Shown here: one piece after another, positions 4,000 to 10,656 of the stretch
Layout: each line of letters begins with the position of its first letter
Position numbering within the stretch: position 1 is the stretch's first letter
Origin: Collinsella intestinalis DSM 13280
Lineage (GTDB): Bacteria; Actinomycetota; Coriobacteriia; Coriobacteriales; Coriobacteriaceae
NCBI RefSeq assembly: GCF_000156175.1
Contig: NZ_GG692711.1
Coordinates: forward strand, 265,371-301,494
DNA length: 36,124 nt
Direction: 5' to 3'
The notes under the pieces: model-generated
The model's database searches: none
The model's input: only the letters and a program-made list of their open reading frames with translations
Told to the model about the DNA's origin: nothing
Position numbers and translations under genes: made by a program

Positions 4000-4128
4000 C
4001 CGCTCCTCATGCTCCAAACTATAACCGCCCACCCGGACAAAACTTCGGGCGGGCGGGTGCTTCGGCTCGACACACCCCTCGTCTTGCGAATGCTACCATC
4101 CAGCTGATACCGTGCAGCTCGAAGCCCC

Positions 4129-4694
4129 CTACAACTCTTTTTGCAGATACACCATGCCCCTGGGCTGAACCCCGGCTTCAAAAATCGGATGGTCGTAGTT
4201 GTCGATGAAGAAGTTGGACAGCATATGCGACCGCACAAAGCCGCATGCCTCGTTAAATGGCACGATGAGAGAGCTGTCACCCGTTCCAACCTGCAGACGT
4301 CGTGCGTCGACGAATAGCGCGCCGCCGCAAAATCAAGAAGGGCGCGACCCGCGCTGCGGCGCCGGCTCGCAGGTAAGACGGCGAGGCTCTTGACCTCGGC
4401 GACGCGGTGCCCCCGTTCATCAAAGCCTTCGTCAGTCACCACCATGCACCCGAGCGCCTCCTCCGGACGGACCGATACGTCGGGGTCGTCCTCGCCTGCA
4501 GAGGCGAAACAGGGGGCAGCAGGTGATGCACAGGCGCAATCGCCCCGCTCAAACGCAATGAATATCTCGCCTCGATGGAGATAGCGCTCGACCATGCCCC
4601 ACTGCTCATCGGCGAGCAGAAGCAGGTCGCGATATCGCTCGCGGTCGCGAACCACTGGCACGATATACAGGGATAGCGTTATGCGCACCTCCAT
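4129..4694 (-). pseudogene. GNAT-family N-acetyltransferase, frameshifted
   Basis: The first frame, from ATG at 4694, gives a GNAT-like N-terminus (LSLYIVPVVRDRERYRDLLL, EQWGMVERYL), a hydrophobic strand GCMVVTDE, then VAEVKSLAVLPASRRRSAGR, the acetyl-CoA-binding motif A region, ending in ALLDFAAAR. There the meaningful frame is lost. In another frame, ARRLQVGTGDSSLIVPFNEA, CGFVRSHMLSNFF and GVQPRGMVYLQKEL complete a normal GNAT C-terminus and stop at TAG 4131-4129. A one-base loss (or two-base gain) near 4318 explains both halves. The start has no clear ribosome site. A sequencing error is an alternative, but neighbouring genes here are also broken. If translated as written, the product would lack the end of the fold. 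Confidence 0.8.
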
Positions 4695-4723
4695 GGGAAT
4701 GCAGGGGGAACCATGCCGCCATT

Positions 4724-4853
4724 CTAGAGCGCGTCCCGCACAAACACGGCGGCGCGGACTTGGTGCCAAGGGCTGCGCTCGGGCACGACTTGCAGCACGC
4801 GGCACTCGAAAGCGGAGCCGTACCCGTAGAAGAACATTGGTGCAGCAGCTCGA
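4724..4853 (-). pseudogene. HIRAN-domain protein, C-terminal remnant
   Basis: Leftward from about 4853 one frame reads MFFYGYGSAFECRVLQVVPE then RSPWHQVRAAVFVRDAL, stopping at TAG 4726-4724. The last part matches the end of the shortened HIRAN ORF at 6914-7084 (RSPWHHVRAAVFVRDAR) almost residue for residue, and the DNA is nearly identical over about 59 bases (4727-4785 against 6923-6981). The N-terminal HIRAN half is absent here. The fragment abuts the left edge of the AT-richer restriction-modification cassette. It is read as the surviving tail of a second copy, or of the original gene split by the cassette. Confidence 0.65.
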
Positions 4854-4894: not shown

Positions 4895-5130
4895 TTGACA
4901 ATTATGAGCTAGGCACTCTCGAACAGTTCTCGAGTCTTTTCATGTTTGCCGAACAGGAGGCTCTGCGACGCTCTTACTAGCCAATCAACGTTAACGAGCA
5001 ACATCGTTAAACGAGCGTACAGCGAAGCGCCTTGCCTAGATATTTCTCAGCATCCATCGAGATCTGAAGCTACCCATGTACTCAATACCCAACCCGAAGG
5101 AGCGTTCATGCCCTTGCAACATACAAACTC
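4895..5130. other. Gene-free left flank of the R-M cassette with an unidentified ORF tail
   Basis: No complete gene is visible. On the plus strand a frame ending at TAG 4978-4980 reads RFDNYELGTLEQFSSLFMFA then EQEALRRSY. It looks protein-like and could be the C-terminal tail of a lost gene carried with the cassette, but I do not recognise it and it has no start of its own. One AGATCT occurs at 5060-5065. The remainder is AT-rich DNA without a convincing hairpin or promoter. Confidence 0.3.
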
Positions 5131-5939
5131 TACAGAGCCTTCTTCGGCCCGCGCTTTCTTAACTCCGTTCCCGCAGATATAAGAAGAGTGCGAACGCGTT
5201 GGATCGAATAAGAATGCTCGGCTGCCAAGCTGCTGATTGATGCCCCGGACTCGTACTCCCTTCTAAGCGCAATTGCAACTTTGACTGAAACTTCTTTAGG
5301 GAGCCGTTCGTTTGGGCTCAGCTCGGGCAGTATAGGACCGCCCTCGTATCCCTTATAAACCTTTCCCTGCGGAACAACATCCGGATCAGACTCATTACCC
5401 CAGACGGCCCAGTGTTCGCGTGGGTATCTTGCAAACATTTCAAGATACGGACCCGGGGAGCACGACTCGATTAGTTCATACTGCTCATCGGGCTTTCTGC
5501 TATGCTCTCGTTTTCGCGTTTCAATCATATTGACCTGACTCCGACCAGGCGCCAGAGTCCTCATGTGACCCTTGACGCCAAATAATAGAAGTTCAGTCAC
5601 ATTTCTAAAGTAGAAGCCGACCCCACGACCGTCTGGTCCACCGTCCTTACGTCGCTTGGCCCAGACTATATTGCTAACATACCGAAATCCCCAGGCCTCC
5701 ATAACTTCAATGCCTTCGGGAAGAAGGGCGTTTGGAACCCATAAGTAGAGGTGGGCATTTTCTGCCGTCACGCTAGACACGGGCAGCATTTTGATTTCTT
5801 CCAAGGACATGGTGGCATACCTTCCCAACCTCTTGTGTTCAGGCGCAACCTTCCCGGTCCTGTTTTGAAATCTCCAAGGTGGATCCGATAATACCGTAGA
5901 AAAACCACCTTCAACGGTCGGCAGCGGTTCATAATTCAT
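5130..5939 (-). CDS. MT-A70 family DNA adenine methyltransferase with C-terminal helix-turn-helix
   Basis: A 269-residue protein. Catalytic motif IV is DPPW at residues 19-22 (FSTVLSDPPWRFQNR), typical of MT-A70-like adenine-N6 methyltransferases. Further matches are LYLWVPNALLPEGIEVMEAW, IVWAKRRKDGG, GYYF-like GVGFYFRNVTELLLFGVKG, and SRKPDEQYELIESCSPGPYL. The last ~42 residues (EYESGASISSLAAEHSYSIQ, RVRTLLISAGTELRKRG) form a helix-turn-helix of the type that binds DNA. The start at 5939 follows GAAGGAG with a 10-nt gap; an in-frame start 14 codons further up would extend into the palindrome region without a ribosome site. It is divergent from the BglII-family endonuclease and is the obvious protecting enzyme. 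The C-terminal domain could make it a repressor of the divergent promoters. Confidence 0.88.
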   Translation of the reverse strand: MNYEPLPTVEGGFSTVLSDPPWRFQNRTGKVAPEHKRLGRYATMSLEEIKMLPVSSVTAENAHLYLWVPNALLPEGIEVMEAWGFRYVSNIVWAKRRKDGGPDGRGVGFYFRNVTELLLFGVKGHMRTLAPGRSQVNMIETRKREHSRKPDEQYELIESCSPGPYLEMFARYPREHWAVWGNESDPDVVPQGKVYKGYEGGPILPELSPNERLPKEVSVKVAIALRREYESGASISSLAAEHSYSIQRVRTLLISAGTELRKRGPKKAL

Positions 5940-5972
5940 ACAGGACACACTCCTTCGGTTCAGATGAGGATA

Positions 5973-6016
5973 TTCTAACATAAATAGATCTTATTTTAGA
6001 TCTATTTATGTTAGAA
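5973..6016. promoter_or_regulatory. Perfect 19-bp inverted repeat with two AGATCT sites between the R and M genes
   Basis: The left arm at 5973-5991 (ttctaacataaatagatct) and the right arm at 5998-6016 are exact reverse complements, separated by TATTTT. The inner end of each arm is AGATCT (5986-5991 and 5998-6003), the recognition sequence of BglII, the namesake of the family of the neighbouring endonuclease. Symmetric TATGTT elements in the arms could act as divergent -10 boxes (plus strand 6007-6012; minus strand 5982-5977). The position between divergent R and M genes fits an operator. Control by the methyltransferase's own helix-turn-helix, or by methylation of the sites, is inference. 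Confidence 0.75.
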
Positions 6017-6037
6017 CTTAGGGCGATTGGATTGAAC

Positions 6038-6859
6038 ATGGTTGAGACAAACACATATAACGAGGTTTTCCCTGCAAACATTTTAGATAAATACACCTTT
6101 ATGGAAACGGGCTCCGCGAGCAAAATTGCAGAAGCTGTCTGCCCGTTGGAACTAAATGACATTATCGAGGTGTTAAACGACTTCGTCTTAAGCTCACGCC
6201 TGCTTTTAACGAAAGGGGGAAATCGCGGGCCAATTCCGATCATTCTTGACGGAGCCTTCTCCGACCGAGGCTGGATTGAGGCAAGAATTGACCTCTATAA
6301 AAGGGCTTTCATTTTTCAGGGGCAGAACGCTCCGACCGTTGCCGAAGATCCCTTGGGTGAAAATGCGAACAATCATCTGGTATCGGAAACATATCAACAA
6401 GGATATTCTGTCGACAACGTAAAGGGTCGCATCGCATTAGATGTGGAATGGAATCCCAAAGATGGCAATCTTGACCGAGATTTCTCCGCTTATCGCGCCT
6501 GGCACAATGAGGGCCTTATTGATCTAGCAATCCTTATTACTCGAATGCATGAAGAGACTCGCGTAATTGCGGATGAGGCGTGGGCAGAATTCATTGAGAT
6601 CGAGCCTGATTTCGCCTCGGAAAAACAAACCGTGGATTACCGCACAACAACTACGGCAAATTTTGAAAAAGCGCGCGAGCGCATTTTACGTGGCGACCTG
6701 GGGACCTGCCCAATTCTAGTAATTGGGATTGGAAAGAAAACTTGGGATGGACTGCCCTGGGATGGCTTGGCGGTGAAATACGAAAAATCACTCGGCACCC
6801 TGGTGCTAAAAGATGCTTTCGGCCGCAACGATCTGGTCGCAGAGTTTTGCGGGATATGA
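6038..6859 (+). CDS. BglII/BstYI-family type II restriction endonuclease
   Basis: A 273-residue protein from the ATG at 6038. The core matches the BglII/BstYI family: VKGRIALDVEWNPKDGNLDR holds the catalytic acidic D..E-x-(N/Q) strand, followed by DFSAYRAWHNEGLIDLAILI and TRMHEE. Later come YRTTTTANFEKARERI and GTCPILVIGIGKKTWDG. Family members cut AGATCT or RGATCY, so a GATC-centred target is expected. An ATG at 6008 is in frame, but it lies inside the inverted repeat and has no ribosome site; 6038 has only a weak TTGGA, yet it leaves the operator outside the gene. The gene diverges from its partner methyltransferase and uses AT-rich codons unlike its neighbours. Without methylation of the host target it would be lethal. 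Confidence 0.82.
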   Translation: MVETNTYNEVFPANILDKYTFMETGSASKIAEAVCPLELNDIIEVLNDFVLSSRLLLTKGGNRGPIPIILDGAFSDRGWIEARIDLYKRAFIFQGQNAPTVAEDPLGENANNHLVSETYQQGYSVDNVKGRIALDVEWNPKDGNLDRDFSAYRAWHNEGLIDLAILITRMHEETRVIADEAWAEFIEIEPDFASEKQTVDYRTTTTANFEKARERILRGDLGTCPILVIGIGKKTWDGLPWDGLAVKYEKSLGTLVLKDAFGRNDLVAEFCGI

Positions 6860-6913
6860 TATCGTCGCTATGACATTTGTCCGTGCGGCACTCGAAACGA
6901 AGTCCATCTCGCC

Positions 6914-7084
6914 TCACCTTGCGTCGCGCACGAACACGGCGGCGCGGACATGGTGCCAAGGGCTGCGCTCGGGCACGAGCTCCAGCGCGTTACCGGCCTT
7001 GAGATCGCCCAAGACTAACGCGCCATCGTGGTGTTGAAACCCGGCGATATGAAATAAGAATAAGTTGCGTGACGGTTCGTACAT
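6914..7084 (-). pseudogene. HIRAN-domain protein with internal deletion (56 residues left)
   Basis: From ATG 7084 (ribosome site AAAGGGG) the frame reads MYEPSRNLFLFHIAGFQHHD, GALVLGDLKAGNALELVPE, then jumps to RSPWHHVRAAVFVRDAR and stops at 6916-6914. HIRAN domains normally continue after the LELVPE strand with an NPYDPNAVAV-type segment; here it is missing. The C-terminal block is the same as in the remnant at 4724-4853, where it is preceded by ECRVLQVVPE. Both junction contexts carry codons for VPE (GTGCCCGAG), so loss between two short repeats is the likely route. The ORF is still open and may be translated, but the domain is incomplete. Confidence 0.7.
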
Positions 7085-7647: not shown

Positions 7648-10602
7648 TTATGCCTCGTCGCCCTCAACAAACACGCTCGTGATGTACTCATAGATATCGC
7701 GCCTGACGGGCGTTTCCAACTGATAGCCGATTTCGACGGCGTTCTCGTTCGCGATCGTCATCGTCTGCACAAAATGCCCCGTCGGGTGCATCTGGCCGAG
7801 GAAATAAAACTCCTTACTTCCTTTGTCGTTCGTGTTCTTGCGAACAAACAGATAGATTTTCATGCCGTTACCCGGCCATGCCATGAGCCGCTGAATATCC
7901 TTCGATGCAAGCGTTCGTCTCTTTTTCGAGATGCCGATGAGCTCGCAATCCGAGACAAAACGATCCTCGTATTTGATGGTGTCGCTGATGTCGGGCGCTT
8001 TATCGTAGTTGATGAACACCGGGAACGTATTCGTCTTCTCGTTGTACATATAACCGCCGATGTTTTGCGGCGTTTCGCTTCGATCCCATCCGAGCAGGCG
8101 ACATACCTCCTCATAGGTATACTTCGCGTTCAACACGAAGCTCGTATCCCGATATGTCTGCGCGTAAAGTTCCTCATGGCGATGAATACCGAATTCGACG
8201 ACCTCATTCAACTGTCGCCTGAACTCCGGATCCAGCAGACTTGCACGGGCCGCATCCGTCCAGCGAAGGACACCATCGGCCCCCTCCTCGACGAGCGATA
8301 CGAACCAATTCGGCGAAGAAAAGCCACCGTTAAGCACATTCGTTGCGGACTTCAGAGCTGCCACTCTCGTGCCAACAGAGCTCTCCGCACTCGGCTGCTT
8401 GCCGCCACCGACAACAGCAAAAGCCCCATCCCGTGCAAGAAGCGCACGCAACAGATACAGTTCATCGGCGCGCTTACCGTTCGCGAGCTTCTTTGAAACG
8501 AATTTGAGAATGTTCTCCTGCGCCTCGCTGAATGTGACGTCGTACGCCTTTTCATATCGAGACAGAAAACCGTGATAAGAGTCATATTTATTAAAGATGA
8601 GCAATGGGTCGATCGATCCGTTGCGATCGAAATCGAGCAACGAGGGAATCGCGCCGAGCATCTGGCGCAGCCCAAGGTACTCGTCCTTCAAAAACCGAGC
8701 AGCGGTAAAATCGCCCTGATCGATTGCCTGGTAAATTCGTCCCTCCGACACGCGGTCGAAGCTCACGGTAGAGGCGCCAGGAATAACCGTGCTCCCCTCT
8801 TTTACGATCGCGCGCAAACGATCCTTGTTGTAGGTCTTATCGCCCGACAAGGCCACGGGAATCAAGAAGTTCTGCTGGTAATTTCCAATGAAGTCGAGAA
8901 CCAGCGTGCTTTCCTTGTTATCAGCCTTACGCAAGCCACGACCAAGCTGCTGCACGAACACGATGGAAGACTCCGTCCGGCGCAACATGATGATCTGGTT
9001 GACCGCAGGGATGTCGACGCCTTCGTTCAGAATGTTCACCGAAAAGATGTACTCAAGCTCGCCGCTTTCAAGCTTGCGGATCACCTCATCTCGTTCCGCA
9101 TTGCTATCGTTGCCGTCAATCGCTTCCGATTTGTATCCGCGTTGGGTGAACTGCTTCGCCAGCTCACGCGCCTCCTCCAGCCTGCTGCAGAACACCAGGC
9201 CCTTCCTGCCATCTTTCTTGACCGAGTACTCCTCGATCTTATCGATGATGTGGTTCACGCGAGCCTCGCTCGTGAGCTTGGAAAACAGCGTGAAGTCACT
9301 CTGCTCTTCCTCGTCGATGGCAAGGTCGGCGATACCAAAGTAGTGAAACGGCGCGAGCATGTCCTCGCGCAAAGCGTCTTGCAAGGTGATCTGGTAGGCG
9401 ATCACATGGTTGAACAGGGCGAAGACGTCATAGCCGTCGGTTCGGTTGGGGGTCGCCGTCATGCCCAAGCAAAACTTTGGTTTAAAGTGCTCAAGAATGC
9501 GCTGGTAGCCCTTCGCCCCCACGCGATGGGCTTCATCAATGACGATGTAGTCGAACAGCTCGGCATCGATTTTGTCGAGATAACCACAGATGGTCGAACA
9601 CATCGCAAAGGTGCAGGTGAACTCGGTTCCATCGCCACCGGCCCTATACAAGCCGTACGTGTAGTTATCCCCCAACAACTTTTTGTAGCTCGCCATTGAT
9701 GCGGTGAGGATACGCTTCCTGTGCGCCAGAAACAGGACACGGACCGGGGCCGCCGCCTTCACATCAAAGGCCGAGAGGTACGTCTTTCCGGTACCCGTTG
9801 CCGAAACGAGCAGAGCGCGAGGATCACGTCGCTCGTGCAGAGCAGCAAGGGCCTCAAGCGCCTTCTCCTGCATTTTATTCGGCTTGATCTTTTTACTCGA
9901 AGCCTCGTTCTCTCCGAGAACGGCAATGGTGCTGCCGTCCGAAAAAGCGGCCTTGCCCTTAGGACGGGGTGCCATTGCGGTTGAAATGTACTCACGATAA
10001 TGGCTGATCCACGTTTCGGTAAGGGGCGCCGTCTCCGAGCAATTCCAAAGCAGCTCGAACTCGCGCTTCAAATCTCCGACCGCACCATCCGCACCATAAG
10101 AACGGAAGAGGACATTCCACTCCTGATTGCAGGTCAGTGCTCGGTCCGTCAGGTTTGAGCTGCCCACGATCACGGTGTTCAGGCCAGACCTATTGAACAT
10201 ATAGCCCTTGGCATGCAGATTCTGCTGGTAAACGCGCGTCTCGATATTGTCATACGTCAAGAGCTTTCGATACACATCGGGGCTGTTGAAGTTAAGGTAC
10301 GTCGAGGTGAGCAGTCGTCCTTTGATGCCCCGGGCCTTCAACTCCGAGAGCATCTGCACCAGACACGTCAGGCCGCCCTCGGAAACGAATGCGACGCAGA
10401 AGTCGAATGTGTCGTTCTCCCCCAGATCCGCGAACTGACGACGCAACACCGACAGAAGGTTGTCGCCCGTTGTCTTCGAATTCGAAATGAAATGAGGACG
10501 ACTATCGAACTCAACGCTCGCCCCGGCCGAAGCGCCAACCAGATCGAGCCGACTCAAGCCATTTTCAGCAGTTGCATTCACGTGTTCCTCGACGTTAGCC
10601 AT
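7648..10602 (-). CDS. PLD-nuclease/SF2 helicase/DUF3427 fusion protein
   Basis: A 984-residue three-part protein. Residues of about 35-190 are a phospholipase-D-like nuclease domain with one HxK motif (LHAKGYMF, H130 and K132) followed by VIVGSSNLTDRAL. Residues of about 235-560 are an SF2 DEAD/DEAH-type motor: Walker A SATGTGKT (267-274), IVIDEAH (DEAH at 356-359), GMTATPNRTDG, NEGVDIPAVNQIIML and the arginine-finger motif QQLGRGLRK. The C-terminal ~380 residues are the DUF3427 region (DYVT-like YTYEEVCRLLGWDRSETPQN, IGGYMYNEKTNTFPVFINY). The motor suggests ATP-driven translocation on nucleic acid with PLD cleavage. Such proteins occur in variable genomic regions and are often suspected of anti-phage roles. 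ATG 10602 is used; a GTG two codons upstream is possible. Confidence 0.87.
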   Translation of the reverse strand: MANVEEHVNATAENGLSRLDLVGASAGASVEFDSRPHFISNSKTTGDNLLSVLRRQFADLGENDTFDFCVAFVSEGGLTCLVQMLSELKARGIKGRLLTSTYLNFNSPDVYRKLLTYDNIETRVYQQNLHAKGYMFNRSGLNTVIVGSSNLTDRALTCNQEWNVLFRSYGADGAVGDLKREFELLWNCSETAPLTETWISHYREYISTAMAPRPKGKAAFSDGSTIAVLGENEASSKKIKPNKMQEKALEALAALHERRDPRALLVSATGTGKTYLSAFDVKAAAPVRVLFLAHRKRILTASMASYKKLLGDNYTYGLYRAGGDGTEFTCTFAMCSTICGYLDKIDAELFDYIVIDEAHRVGAKGYQRILEHFKPKFCLGMTATPNRTDGYDVFALFNHVIAYQITLQDALREDMLAPFHYFGIADLAIDEEEQSDFTLFSKLTSEARVNHIIDKIEEYSVKKDGRKGLVFCSRLEEARELAKQFTQRGYKSEAIDGNDSNAERDEVIRKLESGELEYIFSVNILNEGVDIPAVNQIIMLRRTESSIVFVQQLGRGLRKADNKESTLVLDFIGNYQQNFLIPVALSGDKTYNKDRLRAIVKEGSTVIPGASTVSFDRVSEGRIYQAIDQGDFTAARFLKDEYLGLRQMLGAIPSLLDFDRNGSIDPLLIFNKYDSYHGFLSRYEKAYDVTFSEAQENILKFVSKKLANGKRADELYLLRALLARDGAFAVVGGGKQPSAESSVGTRVAALKSATNVLNGGFSSPNWFVSLVEEGADGVLRWTDAARASLLDPEFRRQLNEVVEFGIHRHEELYAQTYRDTSFVLNAKYTYEEVCRLLGWDRSETPQNIGGYMYNEKTNTFPVFINYDKAPDISDTIKYEDRFVSDCELIGISKKRRTLASKDIQRLMAWPGNGMKIYLFVRKNTNDKGSKEFYFLGQMHPTGHFVQTMTIANENAVEIGYQLETPVRRDIYEYITSVFVEGDEA

Positions 10603-10656
10603 GCTCACACCATTTCAAAATACAACAGGTCATGGCCAGGATACCAAAGCGCCGCA

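Follow-up and report, generated by a model that had tools for sequence, protein, structure and literature searches.

The genome of Collinsella intestinalis DSM 13280 contains a restriction-modification (R-M) system whose two divergent genes are separated by a long inverted repeat, and the question raised by this locus is what the repeat does and how it relates to the sequence that the two enzymes recognize. The window, that is, the whole stretch of DNA analyzed, covers 36,124 nucleotides of contig NZ_GG692711.1 (positions 265,371 to 301,494). A preliminary description had placed a perfect inverted repeat with 19-bp arms, each with an AGATCT at its inner end, in the spacer between an MT-A70 methyltransferase with a C-terminal helix-turn-helix (HTH) and a divergent endonuclease of the BglII family; repeat search and profile matching recovered every one of these elements. 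The repeat, the candidate operator, occupies positions 5973 to 6016 (no strand), and its 19-nucleotide arms (5973 to 5991 and 5998 to 6016) are 100% complementary and enclose a 6-nucleotide loop. By motif match, the two AGATCT sequences, which are forms of RGATCY, lie at 5986 to 5991 (site 1) and 5998 to 6003 (site 2), again without strand, and are 12 bp apart from start to start.

A chance origin of the 19-bp dyad is ruled out, because perfect arms in 200 dinucleotide shuffles of positions 5850 to 6150 never exceeded 9 bp. The arm is unique in the 1.81-Mb genome in a search allowing up to 2 mismatches. The arrangement AGATCT-N6-AGATCT is found at one other place in the genome (L122, G000:C3:697588-697605), which was judged by eye to be coding sequence and is probably a chance occurrence. 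AGATCT shows no enrichment over the window as a whole (9 occurrences, versus 6.9 expected).

The methyltransferase gene lies on the minus strand at 5130 to 5939, with a likely start at 5939. A longer open reading frame (5130 to 5981) has its start inside the repeat, and a Shine-Dalgarno-like AAGGAG at 5950 to 5955 is found 10 nucleotides before the likely start codon. The product matches the MT-A70 profile PF05063 (E value, 8.9e-29) and, at residues 234 to 279 of 283, the HTH_58 profile PF19575 (E value, 1.7e-7); the C-terminal part searched alone (5133 to 5324, minus strand) matches PF19575 with an E value of 9e-9. The DPPW motif (D19-P-P-W22) is invariant among 18 aligned relatives, and m6A is the expected product. 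In the structural model (mean pLDDT, 74), the catalytic part is METTL3-like, with a Z score of 16.6 in a fold search whose listed matches span the catalytic part only, and three helices follow at residues 215 to 230, 235 to 242, and 246 to 255, the 10-residue blocks of residues 211 to 260 having pLDDT values of 80 to 92. Profile searches of the host's own genome identified a single MT-A70 gene and no MethyltransfD12 (Dam-type) match at E values up to 0.001, on which grounds confounding by Dam was dismissed.

The gene for the BglII/BstYI-type restriction endonuclease is on the plus strand at 6038 to 6859 (likely start, 6038; a longer open reading frame begins at 6008), and its product matches Endonuc-BglII PF09195 above the cutoff (E value, 4.5e-24). 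In a profile search against the PDB, BstYI was the sole clear relative (E value, 7e-4, versus 0.67 for the next match), and the structural model resembles BstYI (Z score, 16.0) and BglII (Z score, 15.0) about equally. The BglII/BstYI relationship is visible to profile and model only and was missed in a PDB search with the single endonuclease sequence. A PF09195 nuclease fold and an adjacent methyltransferase of the DPPW-containing MT-A70 family are both present, as in type II R-M systems of the BglII/BstYI-MT-A70 kind. The likely starts at 5939 and 6038 leave 98 bp between the two genes, too little for a controller gene (open reading frame list, at least 80 amino acids).

A 69-bp direct repeat, 90% identical between its two copies (4731 to 4799 and 6921 to 6989), is present on both sides of the R-M genes, and the segment from 4980 to 6860 has a G+C content of 48.6%, compared with 61.8% in its surroundings; the R-M genes look like an insertion with target duplication. 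A large protein encoded nearby (7648 to 10608) contains PLD-like, ResIII/helicase, and DUF3427 domains and is possibly the product of another defense gene.

The target of the window enzymes is very likely RGATCY, by analogy with relatives that act on this sequence. The preliminary description had left a choice between AGATCT and RGATCY, and the tested relative Nph3I makes the degenerate motif the better option. The phage methyltransferase NRS3_07 (M.Nph3I) is 73% identical to the window methyltransferase over residues 27 to 210, and the R.Nph3I nuclease is 29% identical to the window nuclease. In tests of the synthesized enzymes, M.Nph3I is reported to methylate RG(m6A)TCY and R.Nph3I to cut RGATCY, and SMRT data are reported to show near-complete RG(m6A)TCY methylation in the Nph3I host and phage (PMC10734518, PMC9723563). 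M.Nph3I is also reported to have a strong in vitro preference for GGATCC over the other three forms. An Acinetobacter system with a nuclease of the BglII/BstYI superfamily is likewise reported to carry m6A at RGATCY (PMC10287943), and it is because both this system and the Nph3I relative act on RGATCY that we consider it the likely target here.

The base composition of the host gives little guidance on this point. RGATCY occurs at 0.99 times the expected frequency in 311 kb of the host; in the window, it was counted 26 times versus 40 in dinucleotide shuffles, and GATC was counted 189 times versus 225. In the 311 kb and the window, RGATCY is avoided no more than the scarcity of GATC accounts for. 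Avoidance was discarded as evidence for specificity, the shortfall of RGATCY accompanying that of GATC, and the host genome neither supports nor excludes an RGATCY target because the one deficit only parallels the other. Given this lack of avoidance, the R-M system is perhaps a recent arrival in its host.

Relatives of the methyltransferase were gathered from genomes, plasmids, and viral contigs as distinct sequences of at least 55% identity. Duplicates by catalytic-domain sequence and matches that were too short or below 55% identity were dropped before counting, and three viral scans took the best 80 of 109, 104, and 116 relatives. The C terminus of each relative was classified with a hidden Markov model built from the HTH part, and a pair was defined as two or more RGATCY sites at a distance of 6 to 30 bp from each other in the 250 bp that precede the methyltransferase gene. 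The final set contained 122 relatives, from which L128 and L331, whose open reading frames run off the contig, and 8 relatives with less than 250 bp upstream were left out.

Paired RGATCY sites were found upstream of all 20 genes encoding an in-frame HTH methyltransferase and upstream of none of the 92 HTH-less relatives with closed open reading frames, and a search region reaching 250 bp above the last upstream stop gave the same counts. Homologues thus keep the paired target sites, the point on which the preliminary description had proposed to compare spacers, and keep them together with the C-terminal HTH. In the first set of 110 relatives (20 with the HTH), the pair was present in 20 of 20 HTH loci versus 0 of the 83 HTH-less loci that had 250 bp upstream, the open-ended L128 being within the 83, and Fisher's test of the association in this set gave a P value of about 1e-21 with kinship ignored. 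Chance was ruled out as a source of the pairs by 200 dinucleotide shuffles of the 20 HTH upstream regions, in which a mean of 0.16 and a maximum of 2 loci had a pair, and by 32 control palindromes of this type, among which the runner-up to RGATCY was paired in 2 of the 20 HTH loci.

Two of the 20 HTH loci (L123 and L124) were fetched only once the other 18 had shown the pattern; a search for more HTH members in other genome families and in two more viral scans added none. The 20 loci are related by descent and so do not count as independent. The tree requires 4 changes in the HTH trait (109 rows) and likewise 4 in the pair (101 rows), and the well-supported independent contrasts number 2, both agreeing and too few for a sign test. 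One relative counted as HTH-less (L126) has, behind the methyltransferase at about 1570 to 1760, an out-of-frame HTH that looks intact, and its 889 bp of upstream sequence contain no RGATCY; either the HTH and the operator were lost together, or the frameshift is a sequencing error and the score becomes 20 of 21. The catalytic domain of the HTH-less relatives shows an identity similar to that of the HTH relatives. Some HTH-less relatives, L137, L161, L172, and L191 (about -31) and L131 (-25), have a single RGATCY above the aligned methyltransferase start, and these perhaps have one-site control like that of CfrBI.

Found as RGATCY, the 42 pair-member sites at the 20 HTH loci consist of 30 AGATCT, 9 AGATCC, and 3 GGATCT sites, with GGATCC absent (0 of 42). 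The 12 AGATCC and GGATCT sites are spread over 8 loci and retain the R/Y degeneracy of the motif. The bases flanking the sites at positions -1 to -3 are A or T in 213 of 252 cases, in upstream regions with a G+C content of 54%. The spacing between sites is 12 bp at nine loci, 19 bp at four, 23 bp at two, and 14, 20, and 24 bp at one locus each; two further HTH loci have three sites, which brings the overall range to 8 to 24 bp. Such variable spacing is unusual for one fixed dimer.

The window has seven divergent counterparts, namely, L004 and L016 from one Atopobiaceae-type genus, L003 from Adlercreutzia, L017 from another Coriobacteriia genome, L010 from Gordonia, L039 from a viral contig, and L005 from Nesterenkonia. 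Two RGATCY sites are exactly 12 bp apart in six of the seven, the pair of the viral contig being GGATCT plus AGATCC, and the Nesterenkonia locus has three sites with spacings of 8, 16, and 24 bp. Only the window and L017 have a long outer dyad; in the remaining divergent pairs, the perfect arm, counted outward from where the sites end on the inside, is at most 10 bp. The long dyad was rejected as a conserved feature, the outward perfect arms running from 19 down to 0 bp at the HTH loci. The preliminary description had envisaged homologues that keep the dyad and lack the target sites, and the reverse was found, namely, that the sites stay while the outer dyad shrinks or vanishes.

Gene order comparisons revealed that the methyltransferase is divergent from a BglII-type nuclease at 8 of the 20 HTH loci and tandem or convergent at 7 and that no such nuclease was detected nearby at 5. 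At the 7 tandem or convergent loci, the pair precedes the methyltransferase gene, and none of these loci has a pair within 300 bp upstream of the nuclease gene; among the HTH-less loci, 1 of 58 has one there (L043, spacing of 6). On these sequence grounds, the site pair is a possession of the methyltransferase gene, because it stays with that gene at tandem and convergent loci and at those where no BglII-type nuclease was detected nearby. This corrects the earlier view, in which the paired sites were tied to the divergent R-M pair as such. At L007, a BglII-type nuclease (4001 to 4711) is 81% identical to that of L012, and no relative of the methyltransferase was detectable within 4 kb on either side.

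In four plasmids, the gene for an HTH methyltransferase with a similar site pair adjoins an AAA_5 ATPase gene (L096, 970 to 2790; L097, 3944 to 6812; L098, 1 to 2701; L099, 1 to 2800), and the next gene is McrC-like (PF10117) in all three plasmids tested (L097 to L099). These loci possibly encode an RGATCY system with an effector of the McrBC/LlaJI type, the McrBC-like function being assigned from family membership only. It seems that the control module moves together with the methyltransferase and works with different kinds of restriction effector.

The position of the pair relative to the methyltransferase promoter was read from the sequence. A proposed extended -10 element, TGTTAGAAT, occupies 5972 to 5980 on the minus strand, and its TAGAAT begins 8 nucleotides past the promoter-proximal AGATCT. 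The pattern TANNNT starts 5 to 9 nucleotides beyond the last site at 8 of the 20 HTH loci, versus 6% of background positions. By our own reading, the last site at these 8 loci would sit between the -35 and -10 elements of the methyltransferase promoter. A sigma-70 scan of the window in which both hexamers were required gave no promoter at the repeat.

The comparison of relatives establishes a strict co-occurrence of the HTH and paired RGATCY sites, attached to the methyltransferase gene; binding of the pair by the HTH, repression as the sign of control, an effect on the endonuclease, and a role for methylation are what we infer from it. We regard it as likely that these methyltransferases autoregulate through the HTH from paired target sites, whether or not methylation has a part in it. 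In this model, the methyltransferase would act as its own repressor, with the C-terminal HTH bringing the enzyme to its own promoter, where two RGATCY substrate sites, one of them in the -35/-10 interval, would form the operator. With growing amounts of enzyme, the site pair would fill and the methyltransferase gene would be shut off. At divergent loci, the same DNA is just upstream of the endonuclease gene, so that occupancy would alter endonuclease expression too, and this might relieve the endonuclease of competition between the promoters, as with SsoII and CfrBI. Repression is favored because it fits the position of the sites, the precedents of self-repressing methyltransferases, and the Acinetobacter regulator.

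The operator could be unmethylated, hemimethylated, or fully methylated, and its state could tune binding. Such gating by methylation is plausible; in its favor, an exact RGATCY pair is present at every HTH locus, and R/Y is kept in the 12 sites that differ from AGATCT. Counting against it, the sites were located with the RGATCY pattern itself, and an HTH that tolerates R/Y to the same degree would leave the same picture. In its fullest form, this would be a methylation counter, in which MT-A70 methyltransferases have gained a C-terminal HTH and an operator made of their own m6A sites, repression reads the modification state through two promoter sites, and the module is coupled to either a BglII-type nuclease or a McrBC-type motor nuclease. 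We put this fuller version forward tentatively, as somewhat short of an even prospect.

The strongest alternative overlaps with HTH-dependent autoregulation and differs from our main reading in the methylation step alone. It holds that the HTH operator is of the SsoII kind, that the HTH happens to recognize an AGATCT-like sequence, and that methylation has no role in regulation. What the pair is strictly linked to is the HTH and not the catalytic domain, which the HTH-less relatives also have at similar identity, and the A/T-rich flanks suggest contacts outside the target; moreover, regulation and methylation by M.SsoII are reported to be separate and mutually exclusive (PMC6100179). Against this alternative stand the exact RGATCY pair at every HTH locus and the retention of R/Y in the departures from AGATCT, among sites found as RGATCY, as well as the report that the M.SsoII operator differs in sequence from the M.SsoII methylation site (PMC6100179). 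We consider it a possible explanation with an appreciable minority share of the probability.

A CfrBI- or LlaDII-like mechanism, in which m6A in the promoter by itself changes the binding of RNA polymerase with no repressor bound, is unlikely. It would suit the window in that divergent genes flank the site pair, the enzymes' own target as judged from a relative, near the proposed -10, much as has been reviewed for CfrBI (PMC12707154), and methylation of the sites would be expected from the tested relative Nph3I. However, the sites would then be expected also in the HTH-less relatives, whose catalytic domain is the same, and the pair is found in 0 of 92. Such a mechanism also leaves the HTH without a role and makes two sites needless, whereas in this family a DNA-binding domain is fused to the methyltransferase and pairs occur only with the HTH.

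That the repeat instead works as an RNA hairpin, a terminator, or a cruciform is very improbable. Folded as RNA, the repeat in the window has an energy of -24.7 kcal/mol (z score, -8.2), and among four relatives folded, those of L017 (z score, -6.9), L010 (z score, -4.8), and L003 (z score, -3.0) beat their shuffles, but at L039, 9 of 200 shuffles fold at least equally well. Two palindromic sites alone already give some stem, the long stem varies (outward arms of 19 to 0 bp) while the RGATCY pair persists, and a terminator scan gave none at the repeat. As improbable is a self-cutting fuse, in which the endonuclease limits itself by cutting its own promoter at unmethylated sites until methylation is complete; both sites are just upstream of the endonuclease gene in divergent pairs, but the pair is also found at non-divergent loci (0 of 7 upstream of the nuclease) and at the 5 loci where no BglII-type nuclease was detected nearby.

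HTH-dependent autoregulation from paired target sites would bear on the timing of methyltransferase versus nuclease expression, which decides whether restriction systems enter new cells without killing them. The family ranges across actinobacteria, alphaproteobacterial plasmids, and viral contigs. Comparison alone links a DNA-binding domain in this family to an operator apparently built from the enzyme's own substrate, and the natural relatives with and without the HTH, together with the same control beside unlike effectors, make the sensing of self-methylation directly testable.

Several methyltransferases, namely, those of SsoII, Ecl18kI, EcoRII, LlaJI (M1.LlaJI), MspI, and ScrFIA, are reported to repress their own genes (PMC3978073). 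The window family resembles SsoII and Ecl18kI in having a fused HTH, an intergenic operator at the methyltransferase promoter, and expected autorepression (PMC12707154, PMC3978073, PMC6100179). In SsoII and Ecl18kI, as described in these sources, a C5-cytosine methyltransferase carries the HTH at its N terminus, and its 15-bp regulatory site is separate from the site that it methylates; in contrast, the window family has a C-terminal HTH_58 on an MT-A70 protein, and its proposed operator consists of paired methylation sites, which all 20 HTH loci have upstream. EcoRII likewise has a repressor domain fused to its methyltransferase (PMC3978073), and methylation of its sites is reported to be required for repression (PMC12707154). 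EcoRII is a C5-cytosine enzyme, whereas the window enzyme belongs to the MT-A70 family.

The LlaJI system has two C5 methyltransferases. Its site is asymmetric, unlike the palindromic RGATCY. The LlaJI promoter is reported to contain two LlaJI recognition sites (PMC1459862), and M1.LlaJI represses its own gene (PMC3978073), as we propose for the window methyltransferase; the restriction part of LlaJI is McrBC-like (PMC12707154), as are the neighbors of some of the HTH methyltransferases found here. Control of a methyltransferase promoter by methylation has been described for CfrBI, LlaDII, and AhdI (PMC12707154), and a CfrBI target site is reported within inverted repeats where the divergent promoters overlap (PMC12707154). 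The cited account of these three systems describes no fused HTH, whereas in the window family the sites come paired and only with the HTH.

The closest tested enzymes found are those of Nph3I from the Nitratiruptor phage NrS-3, reported as an MT-A70 methyltransferase and a BglII-family nuclease acting at RG(m6A)TCY; the M.Nph3I match spans the catalytic part only (residues 27 to 210), and the HTH is apparently absent there. The R-M cluster of Acinetobacter baumannii A118 is also reported to act at RGATCY with m6A, and its HTH regulator is a separate gene between the methyltransferase and the nuclease (PMC10287943). Deletion of that regulator is reported to have raised methyltransferase mRNA about 50-fold with no significant change in nuclease mRNA (PMC10287943). 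Among the matches listed in the open-licence PMC literature, none describes an MT-A70 methyltransferase that has a C-terminal HTH and acts at its own target sites. The novelty claimed in the preliminary description therefore apparently stands for the arrangement of C-terminal HTH, MT-A70 enzyme, and proposed operator identical to the likely target; it does not extend to target sites in promoters, which are known from CfrBI, LlaDII, AhdI, and LlaJI, nor to dependence on methylation, as reported for EcoRII. What these systems have separately, promoter methylation sites and a fused HTH repressor, the window family joins in one MT-A70 protein whose operator appears to be its substrate.
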